NCBI RefSeq assembly: GCF_013184075.1 | Contig: NZ_JABEQQ010000001.1 | Coordinates: 496,001-560,000 of the forward strand | Direction of reading: 5' to 3' | DNA: 64,000 nucleotides | Origin: Lentilactobacillus kribbianus | GTDB taxonomy: Bacteria > Bacillota > Bacilli > Lactobacillales > Lactobacillaceae | Shown here: one piece after another, positions 43,308 to 61,938 of the stretch | Position numbering within the stretch: the first letter of the stretch is position 1 | Layout of the letters: each line of letters begins with the position of its first letter | Translations under genes and position numbers: made by a program | Notes under the pieces: generated by a model | The model's database searches: none | The model's input: only the letters and a program-made list of their open reading frames with translations | Told to the model about the DNA's origin: nothing

Positions 43308-44473
43308 ATGAACGAAATTCTCAAAGAACAATTTCTGGTCGACGACCTCTCTGCTGATCAACAACACGTTATTGCAGATATCAACGACTACATTAAACAT
43401 AGTCTTAATCAAAAACAACATTCGATTGCTATCATTGACGGTGCTGCTGGTACTGGTAAATCAGTGGTTTTAATGGAATTGGTCCGTAAATATATGACTG
43501 ATCACCATTATAAAACGTCGCTAGTAGTGAACCATCCTGAACTCTACAAAGCTTATCGTGATCTGGGTTCAGCTATTCCTAACTTAAAAGTAGGTGACAT
43601 TCGTCGCCCGACCTCACTGATTAACTATGCGCAAAAAAATCACAAAAAATACGATATTATTTTTGTCGATGAAGCTCATCTTTTATACTCTAAATCCGAA
43701 CCCTACGCGCATTATCGTGGGCAAAATCAATTAACAGATTTGATGGATTTAGCCAAAGTCGTGGTCGCCGTTTATGACTTCGACCAAGTCTTTCAATCCA
43801 AGATGTATTGGGATAAGGACTTATTGATGAAAACCATCGGCAAGCACCCATACAAATTATTTAATATGAATTTCCAATACCGGATGGTTGCTAGTGACGA
43901 ACAAGTACAGTGGATGGATGATTTGACGGCAGAAAAACCAATTAAAGCTTTCCCTAATAATAGTGATTTTGAGTTTCAGGTATTCGATCAAGCCGGCGTG
44001 ATGTTTGATGCAATCAAGCAACGAAACCAAGAAGTGGGGATGAGCCGAATGGTGGCAACCTCAGGATTCCCACGGATTGATGGTCGTCACAACGTCGAAA
44101 TGGATACCTTCAATTTACCTTGGGATGAGTGGGACCCGCAACGTACCCATTGGGCCAAGCGAGAAGGCTCAATTACTCAAGTAGGAACCATTTACACGTT
44201 GCAAGGCTTTGATTTGAATTACGTAGGAATGATTATCGGCCATCATTTGGCTATGATCCTAAAACCGATACCATGACGATCATTCCAGAAAAGTATTCTC
44301 ACAAAGAGATATTCAAAAAACGTAAGGATATCAAGTTCACTCCAGCAGAATACAAGGTCTTCATCGCTAACGTCTTAAACGTATTGATGAAACGTGGTAA
44401 GTACGGTTTGTACTTGACCGCTTATGATGATGCCTTACGCCACCGCTTATTAGAATTAAATTCGCAATCGTAA
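43308..44473 (+). pseudogene. DUF2075 P-loop protein, frameshifted
   Basis: The first frame (43308-44276) gives a P-loop ATPase of the DUF2075 helicase-like family: IDGAAGTGKSVVLME, then FVDEAHLLYSK and FQYRM. After GTIYTLQGFDLNYVGMIIG it shifts out of frame and stops. The neighbouring frame resumes at once with PSFGYDPKTDTMTIIPEKYSHKE and runs to the family C-terminus (YLTAYDDALRHRLLEL) at 44473. The break is at about 44240, where GGCC stands where GGCCC would restore the frame. It is a single-base deletion, or a sequencing error. Good start: CTAGGAGCAACTC. Confidence 0.88.
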
Positions 44474-57263: not shown

Positions 57264-57299
57264 AAAAGAGTAACCACTCAACTGAGTGGTTACTCTTTT
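57264..57299. terminator. Terminator after GNAT gene
   Basis: AAAAGAGTAACCACTCA pairs perfectly with its complement across two bases plus T-tract; it overlaps the last codons of the acetyltransferase gene. Confidence 0.88.
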
Positions 57300-57742
57300 T
57301 TAAGACGCTTCATGTATAAAAGGGGATATGGATTGCCCTGCTCATCATGGGTTGTTTTCTTATAAGTTTCAAATCCCATATATTCATAAAATCCCTTAGC
57401 TAACGGATTTTGCTCATTCACCGCAAGATCATTAACTGAGTAGTTTTTAATTCCGTAATTCAATAATTTTTTGCCGTACCCCTTGCCTCTTTCCGTATCA
57501 GCAACAAAAAGCATTTCAAGATGTTGGTTATTAACTCCCATAAAACCTACCGGAACATGAGTTTCATTTTCGATAATAATTAACCGCTGCACTCCCATTA
57601 ATGCCTGCGGAACATATTGTTTAATGTGTTTGATTTCTTTTTCGGATAGGAAAAGGTGGGTTGCCTTAACTGAACTTTCCCAGACTAATAAAAGTTGTTG
57701 GATCAGCCCTTCGGAGCGGTATTTTATTTCAGTAATTTTCAT
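57290..57742 (-). CDS. GNAT-family N-acetyltransferase
   Basis: The 150-residue acetyltransferase has the acetyl-CoA loop ADTERGKGYGKKLLNYGI (about residues 90-107, the Q/RxxGxG/A motif) and the C-terminal NPLAKGFYEYMGFETYKKT. The acceptor is unknown. It lies downstream of the AT-rich STAND-type gene on the same strand, 67 bp away. Confidence 0.88.
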   Translation of the reverse strand: MKITEIKYRSEGLIQQLLLVWESSVKATHLFLSEKEIKHIKQYVPQALMGVQRLIIIENETHVPVGFMGVNNQHLEMLFVADTERGKGYGKKLLNYGIKNYSVNDLAVNEQNPLAKGFYEYMGFETYKKTTHDEQGNPYPLLYMKRLKKE

Positions 57743-57809
57743 TTATTACCTCACTGGTTGTGATTGTAATTTAAATAATCCTCTATCCTATTCATAATTC
57801 TATATTAAT

Positions 57810-60800
57810 TTAAAACCTTTCAATAAATTCCCTCATAAGAACATCCTGAATTTTATCTTTTAACTTTTCTTGTAAATTTTTCAAATACACTACGTCAGAA
57901 GGATCTTTAAATATAGTCAATAATTTAGAAACAAAATTAAGATCTTTTTTTATTTCTGGAACTTCAGAACCTGACCAGTATTTATTAAACTTCAAAATAC
58001 TAAACTCTTTTAACGGATAATTTTTATCAGCAATAATTTTAAAACAATAAAACATATCATCATATGAAAAAAATCTATTTTCTAAATTTAAAATTTTTTT
58101 AATTGTATTGATATCATTAGTATTTCGAAGTATTGTAGCTAACCATTCTTTCTTTGCATCTGTTCCTATAGCAAAAACTGCTTGCCATCCATTATTAAAA
58201 TATGAATACATAGGATTTCTATCTTCAATTTTGAGTTTGATTAAATCTAAGAATGATGGAGCTTTCCATAAAATCATTATTTTAGATTCAAGCATACCTT
58301 GACTCCACCAATAGTTAGAATTTAAATCATTAAAAAGGAAATTTATTATTTTCTTCTGAAAAATATCATCGTCTTTTAGTAAAATAAATAAAGAATTATT
58401 GATATCAATTTCATTAGGCAACCCAGCTATATAGAAATCATATAGTTTATTTTTTTCATGGATATTATCAAAAAATATCTTTGCATCAATATCTGATAAG
58501 AACCTAAATGAAAAAAACTGGCCATAATTAATTGTTTTGTCAATAATTAGTTCATTAATTTTACTATTTTCTTGTACTATTTTAGCAAGATTATCATACT
58601 GTACAATACCCCATTCTTCTTTATTAAAATTTTTTATCAATGAATATAGTATTTCTATATCATTTGCATTAGGATTTTTTATTGATGAATATATAAGATA
58701 AAAAAGCTGTTTATTTTCCCAATAACATGTTTTGAAATCATTTAAAAAACGACGAATTCCATACATACAGACTAATCGGTAAAGAATATGTGTATTTACC
58801 TTTTCCAATCCTGTTTCTAAAATAGATTTAATAAGAAATTCCTTTTGATCTTGATTTAATATTTTTAAACCATTTTCAAAACTTTGTTCAATCCTATCAA
58901 CATTTACAAGAGGATTAGATTTCATACATTTCGCAATACAATAAGAATACTTTTTTGATTCCATATAGGATTTATCTATCAAATGATTAATTTGTGGATT
59001 TTTCTTTAAATAAGGAATTTCTCCAGATATATTAGAATAATTGTTCATTATCCAATAACATTCTTGCAAAGAGTCAAATGAGTTCATCACTTGTTTTACA
59101 GAAATATCATTATTAATATAATCTAATCGTTTAGCCTCTACAGCTATAAATTTTTTATTGTCACTACTAATATTTGATGAAGCATTTGCTGCATCCAAAA
59201 ATGTGTTAATATCTACATCTGCAATTTTTTTCGTTTTATTTGTATAATTAATTTTTTCATGTACTAATGTTAGAAATGTATTTTCAGGAATAAGATTGTT
59301 CTTTACCAAATAACTAATAATATTTAAAATTTTCTTTCTAACAACCATATCGATAGAATTATCATCAAGATTATATTTTATATAACTGAAATTTCCATTA
59401 TCATTCATAACGGAATACTTACTACCTCGTGTATTCAAAAAAGAGCGGCATGTAAATAAAAGACATTCTGATACAACCAGATTATTTCTATGCATTTCTC
59501 GTTCAAAGGCGTTTATAGCTATTTTTAATATAGCATTAGGATCTAAAAGTTCAGGATTAAATCCAAATACTTCAATAAAGAAATTAGTAATATTAATTAC
59601 ATATTTACCATTTTTTTCCAAATAGTTTAGGCATTCGCTAACTACTATGCTAGTATTTTCCTTTATGTTTGCCCGTGTTAAAGTGCGCATAAGTTTAAGG
59701 AAATCATTATATTCACCTCTTGCACTCCTATCAAAATCTTTGAATTGAAAAGATGGTACATAATTAGTTAATGGTAATTTATTAATAATACTCATTTCCA
59801 TTTCGATAACCTTTGATTCTAAAAAAATACCAAACATCACTAAATAATCAATTTTGTTTTTTTCTGACATGCTAGAAATTGTTGAATCATAAAAGTCACG
59901 TGCAATTTTTCCTAATTTATTTTCATTTATTTCATTAATTTCGATTGCACTTGCACGATTTAAAGATGACACTAAATTATGAAATCCATAACTATATATC
60001 GTACTAAATAAATCTTTCAAATAAAAACGATGTGATTCAAAAAAATAATAATATAAGATATAATCTCGTAATGATTGGTCCTCTATACTAACTGCCTTGT
60101 TTTGAAAAATATTACAAATTTCTTTATCATTAAGCCACACCACATCGTTTACAAATTGATTCATTTCCAAATCAAGAACTTTTAAAATAGAAGAAAGATT
60201 ATTATTATCACGAAATTTAATTCGTTCAAAAACGGCTACGATAAATAAAGAACGCATACATGAATCTGATATTTTTGCATCATTTATTACGTATTTATAG
60301 TAATTGACCATAATAGAATGAGTATTTTTTAAAACATTAATCCCTTTTTCGCTGACTAACTTTGCTGCAATAACTGCTTGTCGAGGGTTATTATGTGATA
60401 ATTTAACTATTTGATTTCTAACGCCTTTATTTTCAGGGAAATATTCTTTCATTATTTGTCCAATAGTTTCATCATTTAACTCTTTTAAATAAAATAAATC
60501 TACATCATATTTATAACTAATTTTTTTAATATCAGATAAAGCGTAATCTCTAACTGTAATAATAAAATGCAAATTAATATTTTCTTGTAGAAATGAAAAA
60601 ATGCTTGCGAGGTCTTTCACCTCATTAACGTCATCAATTAATACATAATTATTTTTTGTCTTCGAGATAAAACCATCTAAATCATTGTATAAAAGTTGCC
60701 CATTACTTTTAACAAATAAACATTGATTATTAGGAATATCATCAAGTTTTCGTAATGATTCAATTGCAATTTTTGTTTTACCTGCTCCTGGTTTACCTGT

Positions 60801-61412
60801 AATAATTACAATTTGTTTGCTAATTATCAATTCATTTAATTTATTTACCTGGTTATCTTGGTCAACATACAGCGTATCTATTGGAGCATTAGTTTCACTT
60901 TTATCATGTTTTTCAATAAATTTATTAAAACTATTAATTTGTCCTGTCCAATTAGATAATTCAAAAAACTCTATAGCTAGTGTATGATACTCATCGATTA
61001 AATCCATTGCAATCATCGTTGAATTCAAAATAATCAGCGAATATGGTTTAGCCAAATTAATAAGTTCTTCATGTTTTTGCACTGAAATATTAGATCCTTC
61101 ATAACAACAAACAATTTTATCAATTTTGCCATGTTCTAATTTAGACTTTGTTTTTGCATCTCTAATATCAGATTCTAATTTTTTAACTGCATCTTTTCGT
61201 GTACCAAACATTGTCAAAATATACTTATCTGAATTATCTAAATATACATAAGTATCTGGTGTGCCTGGTGTAGTTTTATTGGAACCATCCATGGACCCAG
61301 GAGTGTACAATTCCCATCCATATTTTTGATGTAAATATCTATCGCAAAGTTTCTGAAATCTTCCTCCCTCCATTGATCGAATTTCACTTTCAATTTGGTT
61401 TAAACGATCCAT
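57810..61412 (-). CDS. 1200-residue STAND-type P-loop NTPase, putative defence protein
   Basis: Residues 1-150 form an N-terminal domain: EGGRFQKLCDRYL, then GSMDGSNKTTPGTPDTYV and YILTMFGTRKDAV. It is reminiscent of nuclease-like or effector/sensor domains found before prokaryotic STAND ATPases, but without a clear (D/E)xK. The NTPase follows: Walker A GKPGAGKT (206-213), Walker B YVLIDD (256-261), ITVRD (about 285-289). From about 330 to 1200 the protein is helical, Asn/Ile/Lys-rich and without recognisable motifs, like the superhelical sensor part of Avs/STAND proteins. Much more AT-rich than its neighbours. The start follows AGGAAGTG, 46 bases after the rlmH stop. A phage-sensing role is inference. 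Confidence 0.8.
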   Translation of the reverse strand: MDRLNQIESEIRSMEGGRFQKLCDRYLHQKYGWELYTPGSMDGSNKTTPGTPDTYVYLDNSDKYILTMFGTRKDAVKKLESDIRDAKTKSKLEHGKIDKIVCCYEGSNISVQKHEELINLAKPYSLIILNSTMIAMDLIDEYHTLAIEFFELSNWTGQINSFNKFIEKHDKSETNAPIDTLYVDQDNQVNKLNELIISKQIVIITGKPGAGKTKIAIESLRKLDDIPNNQCLFVKSNGQLLYNDLDGFISKTKNNYVLIDDVNEVKDLASIFSFLQENINLHFIITVRDYALSDIKKISYKYDVDLFYLKELNDETIGQIMKEYFPENKGVRNQIVKLSHNNPRQAVIAAKLVSEKGINVLKNTHSIMVNYYKYVINDAKISDSCMRSLFIVAVFERIKFRDNNNLSSILKVLDLEMNQFVNDVVWLNDKEICNIFQNKAVSIEDQSLRDYILYYYFFESHRFYLKDLFSTIYSYGFHNLVSSLNRASAIEINEINENKLGKIARDFYDSTISSMSEKNKIDYLVMFGIFLESKVIEMEMSIINKLPLTNYVPSFQFKDFDRSARGEYNDFLKLMRTLTRANIKENTSIVVSECLNYLEKNGKYVINITNFFIEVFGFNPELLDPNAILKIAINAFEREMHRNNLVVSECLLFTCRSFLNTRGSKYSVMNDNGNFSYIKYNLDDNSIDMVVRKKILNIISYLVKNNLIPENTFLTLVHEKINYTNKTKKIADVDINTFLDAANASSNISSDNKKFIAVEAKRLDYINNDISVKQVMNSFDSLQECYWIMNNYSNISGEIPYLKKNPQINHLIDKSYMESKKYSYCIAKCMKSNPLVNVDRIEQSFENGLKILNQDQKEFLIKSILETGLEKVNTHILYRLVCMYGIRRFLNDFKTCYWENKQLFYLIYSSIKNPNANDIEILYSLIKNFNKEEWGIVQYDNLAKIVQENSKINELIIDKTINYGQFFSFRFLSDIDAKIFFDNIHEKNKLYDFYIAGLPNEIDINNSLFILLKDDDIFQKKIINFLFNDLNSNYWWSQGMLESKIMILWKAPSFLDLIKLKIEDRNPMYSYFNNGWQAVFAIGTDAKKEWLATILRNTNDINTIKKILNLENRFFSYDDMFYCFKIIADKNYPLKEFSILKFNKYWSGSEVPEIKKDLNFVSKLLTIFKDPSDVVYLKNLQEKLKDKIQDVLMREFIERF

Positions 61413-61458
61413 ATTGCACTTCCTATCACTTAAAAATCAGTTATATTAAAAATTCTCA

Positions 61459-61938
61459 TCACTTATGATACGGACTACCCTCATTAATCATAAACGCCCG
61501 ATAAATCTGCTCCGTCAACACAGTACGCATCAATTGGTGCGGCATCGTGAACTTACCAAAGGAAATCTGGGTATTGGCTCGTTTCAAGACGGCTGGATCC
61601 ATTCCTAAAGAACCACCAATCACAAACGTTAAATCAGAGTGACCGTACGTGGTTAGTTGCTGTAATTCTGCCGCGAATTCTTCGGAGGTCCGTTCTTTAC
61701 CTAAGATGGCAAGTGCAAATACGTACTCGCGATCTTTTATTTTGCTTAAAATGCGTTCGCCTTCCTTTTGCATAACAGTGGCCATTTCGGCTGCACTCAA
61801 AGATTCCGGTGCTTTTTCATCGGGAACCTCAACGATTTCGAATTTGCAAAAACGGCCCAGTCTTTTAGCGTATTCCACAATCGCTTGTTTCCAGTATTTT
61901 TCTTTTAATTTTCCAACTACTACCAATTTGACGTTCAT
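61459..61938 (-). CDS. rlmH: 23S rRNA pseudouridine-1915 N3-methyltransferase
   Basis: The 159-residue SPOUT methyltransferase starts [16 protein letters not shown] and has [14 protein letters not shown], the SAM knot [11 protein letters not shown] and the invariant C-terminal EQIYRAF...GSPYHK. It acts on 70S ribosomes. The ATG at 61938 follows AGGAGAAT. Its 3' end (CCGTATCATAAGTGATG) resembles the staphylococcal SCC attachment core because both encode the same YHK end. Confidence 0.96.

Follow-up and report, generated by a model that had tools for sequence, protein, structure and literature searches.

Background

Avs proteins combine an N-terminal effector, a STAND NTPase and a C-terminal sensor in one protein. 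Of the described types, Avs4 (AVAST type 4) has been solved bound to a phage portal protein (PDB 8dgf), and Avs5 (AVAST type 5) is a SIR2-STAND protein whose NTPase is assigned to the nSTAND3 family in the available part of the source (PMC12931631). Here we describe a gene for an Avs-like STAND protein, referred to as the receptor gene, in a 64,000-nucleotide stretch of Lentilactobacillus kribbianus (contig NZ_JABEQQ010000001.1, positions 496,001 to 560,000; "the window"), where it is situated behind the housekeeping gene rlmH. The 3' end of rlmH is also the site of the staphylococcal and enterococcal cassette chromosomes (SCC and ECC), and the available part of PMC6222049 describes enterococcal ECC elements that occupy rlmH and carry defence-related genes. 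Likewise, the accessible part of PMC4701971 gives rpsI, guaA and rumA as targets of streptococcal integrative and conjugative elements (ICEs), which have 12-54-bp repeats and site-specific tyrosine integrases.

We report that the receptor gene, which a preliminary description of the window had singled out, is a candidate single-gene defence system, and our data are best read as a novel Avs-like variant carried by a minimal mobile unit. Taken as a whole, we consider a single-protein Avs-like immune receptor to be the best explanation, with a probability of about 0.72. Among the literature matches listed there was neither a published account of an Avs4-like N-terminal domain joined to nSTAND3 nor an example of a Lactobacillus cassette chromosome at rlmH, and the word nSTAND is absent from the main text, as far as available, of a survey of bacteriophage exclusion (BREX) systems (PMC12839542).

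Results

Domain plan of the receptor

The receptor is encoded by an open reading frame (ORF) of 1200 amino acids with an ATG start and zero internal stops (Table 1), and no close match to a characterised non-defence protein was seen. The three parts of the Avs plan can be recognised in it, the C-terminal part at low model confidence. For comparison we aligned 23 members of the family (alignment A2). Among 25 genomes with a match, 22 were kept after dropping G897 (N-domain match in a NACHT protein), G948 (no N-terminal match) and G175 (a fragment); A2 omits the broken or split genes of G058, G1030 and G542, and adds two Leptospira members, one Paenibacillus member and one partial Neomarinimicrobiota member, while the G540 member is cut by a contig end.

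Pfam gave no credible match for the N-terminal domains (N-domains) of 13 members and PDB sequence searches with the N-domain gave no match, so a fold search was needed. In the N-domain model, helices and strands follow each other as in the PD-(D/E)XK fold (helix-strand-strand-helix-strand), and Avs4 ranks best among solved structures, at 16% identity across the aligned N-domain. The window protein differs from Avs4 in having MxG in place of (D/E)xK and in matching no Avs model in PADLOC or among the NCBIfam matches listed. The second part was predicted from the start to be a STAND-like P-loop NTPase, and this is borne out: it matches Pfam nSTAND3 (PF20720) with 27.7 bits against a cut-off of 27.2, as do all 23 aligned members at E ≤ 0.01. 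It carries a Walker A motif, GKPGAGKT (residues 206-213), a Walker B motif, IDD (D260-D261), and TVRDY at 286-290; G209, G211, K212, D260 and D261 are invariant across the 23 rows, and both Walker motifs are intact. In structure comparison the top VIA-align rows were the AVAST5 filament and EfAvs5, with Avs5 as the highest-Z match. Unlike Avs5, the window protein has no SIR2 match (Pfam, E up to 10) and is predicted to have a PD-(D/E)XK-like fold at its N-terminus instead.

The remaining C-terminal part of ~770 residues is mostly helical in the model, as the preliminary description had it, though at low confidence: the full-length model has a mean predicted local distance difference test score (pLDDT) of 59.1 and a predicted template modelling score (pTM) of 0.34. 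Over region 421-1200 the window protein is 13-21% identical to the 22 other aligned members. The proposed likeness to Avs proteins also emerges when the full model is searched with Foldseek, where Avs4, Avs3 and Avs5 structures rank on top with low TM-scores. The comparison part by part thus places the N-domain nearest Avs4 and the NTPase nearest Avs5.

No Avs model among the matches listed recognises the family. With PADLOC the window protein matched only mad8 at 0.0033, and the 23 members matched 13 families, none of them Avs; in NCBIfam the window protein matched no Avs model and no Avs family was among the best 25 of the 42 families matched by the 23 members. Judged by these models the receptor is not a catalogued Avs type. 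Two further searches were set aside: a PDB profile search with the full family returned P-loop proteins in general and chance hits, interleukin-4 among them (best 60 of 92), and a BFVD search only general restriction-endonuclease-like and RPB5 rows.

A non-canonical centre in a constrained domain

The N-domain had been described as lacking a clear (D/E)xK centre, and the alignment agrees. The textbook PD-(D/E)XK arrangement, D...(D/E)xK, is not found in the window protein, where D53 is present and followed by MxG (M68-x-G70). We take D53 and the M68/G70 motif to hold the corresponding places on the basis of the strand order of the model (54-58, 63-70) and the layout of the fold, rather than a residue-level superposition. 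All 23 members have D24, G39, K46, G50, P52, D53 and K78, and nearly all have G43 and D82. The column of the catalytic acid (68) is occupied by E in 7 members, by M in 15 and by T in one, and the lysine column (70) has K in none, with G in the window protein. When residues 66-72 are left out of the tree, the acid column changes state at least three times on it.

The ratio of nonsynonymous to synonymous substitution rates (dN/dS) was determined for seven pairs of intact orthologs from other genomes, not for the window copy. It ranges between 0.07 and 0.26 in the N-domain, 0.12 and 0.23 in the NTPase and 0.21 and 0.40 in the C-terminal part, which has the highest value in all seven pairs. The N-domain has the lowest value in five of the seven (four of which share G478; the exceptions are G489/G548 and G208/G269). 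These low values indicate that the N-domain is constrained and not decayed in spite of the missing textbook centre, and the MxG motif appears from the alignment to be common to a clade. With Met-x-Gly instead of (D/E)-x-K, catalysis would have to use other conserved residues, for which D24, K46, D53, K78 and D82 are candidates, or the domain would act without cutting.

The latter alternative accepts the receptor as real and proposes that the N-domain of the Met-x-Gly clade binds nucleic acid or oligomerises, thereby blocking phage replication by occupation or relying on a host nuclease. The absence of both catalytic acid and lysine from the window protein, the prevalence of Met over acid and the repeated changes in the acid column speak for it. 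The invariance of D53, K46, G39, G50 and K78, near-invariance of G43 and D82, and low dN/dS of the N-domain, albeit from pairs that largely share one genome, would rather suit a working site with a changed layout. A non-cutting N-domain is a serious possibility, but a doubtful one.

A foreign gene at the cassette-chromosome site

The receptor gene is foreign by base composition. Its GC content of 25.6% (16.8% at third codon positions) is the lowest among the 52 window ORFs of at least 150 amino acids (mean 41.6%, standard deviation 4.7; next-lowest ORF 34.0%), and the pronounced AT-richness pointed out earlier is thereby confirmed. It is single-copy in its own genome (1.51 Mb, 3 contigs). The start lies 46 bp behind rlmH (PF02590) and the end 67 bp before a GNAT acetyltransferase gene, all three on the same strand, in agreement with the described position between rlmH and an accessory gene. 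No recombinase gene is present beside it in the window ORF list, in keeping with the solitary gene initially proposed, and large serine recombinases (PF07508) number 0 in its own genome, in a genome-wide search that did not cover tyrosine recombinases. Scans, which are weak evidence for such sites, detected neither a terminator-like site on the minus strand between 57100 and 62500 nor anything promoter-like in the 46-bp gap. It is hence plausible that the rlmH promoter drives the receptor gene, and the two genes are probably co-transcribed.

rlmH is present in all 24 genus members studied. The receptor gene occurs in one of them, with no match in the other 23, and so does not belong to this locus in every relative. 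Coming from rlmH, homology with the sister species G018 and G019 extends as far as 61455, and coming from the GNAT gene as far as 57753; aligned identity is 78-81% in both flanks, and the interval is replaced by other DNA, 3.5 kb in G018 and 17.5 kb in G019. G018 has the GNAT ortholog on the corresponding side of the interval, and in G019 the start of this ortholog is at the edge of the retrieved sequence; the GNAT gene is probably outside the mobile unit.

Table 1 Features of the receptor locus in the window
Feature	Position	Strand	Basis
Avs-like STAND receptor gene	57810..61412	minus	ORF list, composition, PF20720 match, single genomic copy
N-terminal domain, residues 1-155, predicted PD-(D/E)XK-like fold	60948..61412	minus	nearest solved structure is the Avs4 N-terminal domain
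Active-site region, P52-D53, then M68-x-G70 replacing (D/E)-x-K	61203..61256	minus	alignment of 23 members
nSTAND3 NTPase, approximately residues 185-430	60123..60860	minus	Pfam; structural match to Avs5
C-terminal part, residues 431-1200, predicted alpha-helical, putative sensor	57813..60122	minus	low-confidence model
Sequence resembling a ribosome binding site, AGGAAG	61419..61424	minus	read from sequence
rlmH, 3' end as insertion site	61459..61938	minus	ORF list, PF02590
rlmH-side junction TATCATAAGTGATGAG	61455..61470	minus	identical in G018 and G019; all three diverge beyond
Foreign interval between flanks conserved with G018 and G019	57754..61454	minus	flank alignment
GNAT acetyltransferase, conserved distal flank	57290..57742	minus	Pfam; orthologs in G018/G019

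The insert in the window occupies the same rlmH 3' site as SCC and ECC elements and shares the rlmH-side junction with the two sister species. Unlike these cassettes, the insert consists of one gene, without a recombinase and without a detectable distal attachment (att) repeat. No distal copy of the junction was found within the window beyond rlmH itself, and genome-wide there were three other places with 2 mismatches each (control, 2), none near the receptor gene. By its own content, the window unit does not appear to be an SCC element. The G019 element at rlmH (L096:3555-17713) has two large serine recombinases, a protein that combines DUF927 with the Cch helix-turn-helix (HTH) domain, DUF1643 and an att-like sequence, TATCACAAGTGATGAG, at L096:3555. 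We take the set of two recombinases, a Cch-type protein and DUF1643 as a marker of cassette chromosomes, and by its gene content this element is cassette-chromosome-like. The sequence TGMG follows the rlmH stop codon at 8 of 39 rlmH loci (own included) against 0.35 expected from base composition, a figure uncorrected for kinship of the loci. Its value as a mark of Ccr elements is weakened by four such loci in another genus that, by reading, hold no intact recombinase, one of them holding a recombinase fragment.

Another large solitary gene, for a 1105-amino-acid SIR2_2 protein (24% GC), is situated directly behind rlmH in G011 of the same genus (L097:11660-14977). This protein had no PADLOC match, relatives were found in 7 of 246 order genomes, and no distal repeat could be detected (its score was reached by 249 of 300 shuffles). 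Further genes were also seen: in G018 two divergent adjacent reverse-transcriptase (RVT_1) genes of 22-24% GC (L095:7807-11167), next to the counterpart of the gene that lies at 43308-44276 in the window; in the G019 element arsenic-resistance-like genes (by reading only); and behind rlmH in G267 an AAA_13 ATPase gene of 23% GC together with a large serine recombinase fragment (L132:14754-17323).

A single-ORF insert in a second genus

In G111 and G252, which belong to another genus, a relative (28% identity overall, 51% in the N-domain) is located 20 bp behind rlmH, whereas the sister species G136 and G159 are empty at that site and match on both sides. In G111 the similarity to the empty sites breaks off at L016:8226 on the left and resumes at L016:11737 on the right, with a 14-bp repeat, ATAAATAAGATACG, common to both matches. 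This gives an insert of 3,524 bp against an ORF length of 3,504 bp; the right repeat overlaps the stop codon of the ORF, and the hairpin and T-run beyond it are, read by eye, those found behind rlmH in the empty sites. The exact boundaries, with the terminator beyond, indicate that one ORF with its ribosome binding site entered between rlmH and its terminator. Both repeats are also present in G252, with the left copy differing by 1 base within 14. Since the window gene groups with those of G111 and G252 in a single clade (support 100/99), a clade-wide preference for rlmH is possible.

Other insertion sites and tests for repeats

In 12 of the 22 kept genomes the gene is on the 3' side of housekeeping genes. 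These are rlmH (own, G111, G252 and G1030, and G058 at 2.4 kb beyond a convergent gene), rpsI (G076, G582, and G585 with an HTH gene between), guaA (G470, convergent, and G532 with a tyrosine integrase between), rlmD (G533) and mnmG (G707). Neighbours were identified mostly by Pfam (G532 guaA and G111/G252 rlmH by reading), and the count, made without a control set of unrelated genes, draws its weight from the small number of such target genes per genome. In three genomes the relatives are inside BREX operons, between PglX-type and PglZ genes, like BREX accessory effectors, whereas the window gene stands alone. The G612 relative is near a conjugation-type AAA_10 gene and the G051 relative beside a resolvase; for the remaining five (G478, G489, G548, G540 and G542) no site class is given. 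In the BREX operon of G166 an EC042_2821-like and DUF3644 gene (L021:6321-7163) adjoins the STAND relative, and at two loci (L079:12040-12993 and L078:6745-7755) a conserved HTH-domain gene, perhaps a regulator, is divergent from the STAND gene.

Repeats were sought around the far end of the gene, in a stretch that begins 60 bp ahead of this end and reaches 500 bp beyond it, with 300 shuffles; G1030, where the contig ends, was outside the test. Repeats beyond chance were detected in 5 of 11 cases, or 4 if G111 and G252 represent one event: 51 bp in G585, 64 bp in G707 and 14 bp in G111 (0 shuffles reaching the score in each), 12 bp in G252 (2) and 14 bp with one mismatch in G532 (4). The G533 repeat at rlmD was dropped as weak (19), and the others were G058 (193), G582 (224), G076 (263), the window copy, with no repeat beyond chance (294), and G470 with none (300). 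When the whole downstream stretch was used, only G585 and G707 were clear of 30 shuffles. Among orthologs from five genomes (72-87% DNA identity), nine of ten pairs gave a main match that stops approximately 25 bp or less from the ORF, and three of the ten had further short matches elsewhere; G478 and G585 also share the upstream HTH gene and approximately 270 bp downstream.

As with the ICEs, for which the target list was available in part, the relatives lie at the same target genes and show 3'-end duplications at rpsI (G585) and guaA (G532). They differ in that their units are a few kb and mostly lack an integrase (G532 has one), and there was no convincing repeat at rlmD or in G076, G582 and G470. 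Such sites, matching attachment sites of cassette chromosomes and of ICEs (site list in the available part of PMC4701971), together with members on Leptospira plasmids and the one near the AAA_10 gene, could mean that the receptor serves competition between elements instead of phage defence, as cargo that excludes plasmids or rival elements or stabilises its site. We regard this as unlikely: location tells more about the mode of travel than about what is sensed, and BREX and Gabija neighbours point to phage, although the two ideas are compatible.

Distribution

In samples with one genome per species, members were found in 10 of 397 genomes of the family (single-protein query, E ≤ 0.001), 17 of 395 of the order and 4 of 398 of the phylum (both with the profile, E ≤ 1e-10, own included). 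Thirteen Leptospira plasmid records have distant members, none covering 80% of the query. A scan of genome contigs gave 0 matches with the single protein and 2 with the profile (Paenibacillus and a Neomarinimicrobiota bin). The viral scans revealed one true member, on a viral contig with a terminase gene, and another match was rejected as it reads as a DnaC-like protein; three further viral scans and the phage records searched gave no match. The NACHT protein of G897 (L090:7060-10344), the N-terminus of which matches the receptor N-domain, is beside GajA, GajB and DUF499.

A passenger gene being lost, there only because it landed recently in a recombination hot spot, would be in line with the lack of a match in the other 23 genus genomes and with the several stops that break the gene of G058, the closest relative by N-domain (69% over residues 1-174), but is very improbable given that the window copy keeps an unbroken frame of 1200 codons at 25.6% GC and that intact orthologs, on which selection was measured, are under purifying selection.

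Discussion

The domain plan, the neighbours of the relatives and the evolution of the family fit a phage-sensing STAND receptor, for which antiphage activity is predicted. By analogy with Avs proteins, the helical C-terminal part would bind a phage protein, the NTPase would then bind ATP and oligomerise, and the clustered N-terminal domains would attack nucleic acid, such that the infection is stopped, often along with the cell. Its gene probably reached the site behind rlmH as a very small cassette, in the manner seen exactly for the G111 relative.

A more speculative proposal, which we hold to be rather improbable, is a minimal immune cassette made up of a promoterless receptor ORF, a ribosome binding site and a short direct repeat. 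It would be inserted in trans, or by some other route, after the stop codon of a housekeeping gene and ahead of its terminator (rlmH in the window and in another genus; elsewhere perhaps rpsI, guaA, rlmD or mnmG), host transcription would express it, and its effector would be a re-tooled PD-(D/E)XK domain with a conserved non-canonical centre.

The family joins an Avs4-like N-terminal fold to an Avs5-type NTPase and is named by no defence model among the matches listed. Moreover, the empty site in another genus indicates that an immune-receptor gene arrived as one ORF at a cassette-chromosome site, and with this exact site and its single-ORF insert the question of how solitary defence genes move becomes directly testable. 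Finally, the loss of textbook nuclease residues from a constrained domain calls for either a new active-site layout or a non-cutting effector.

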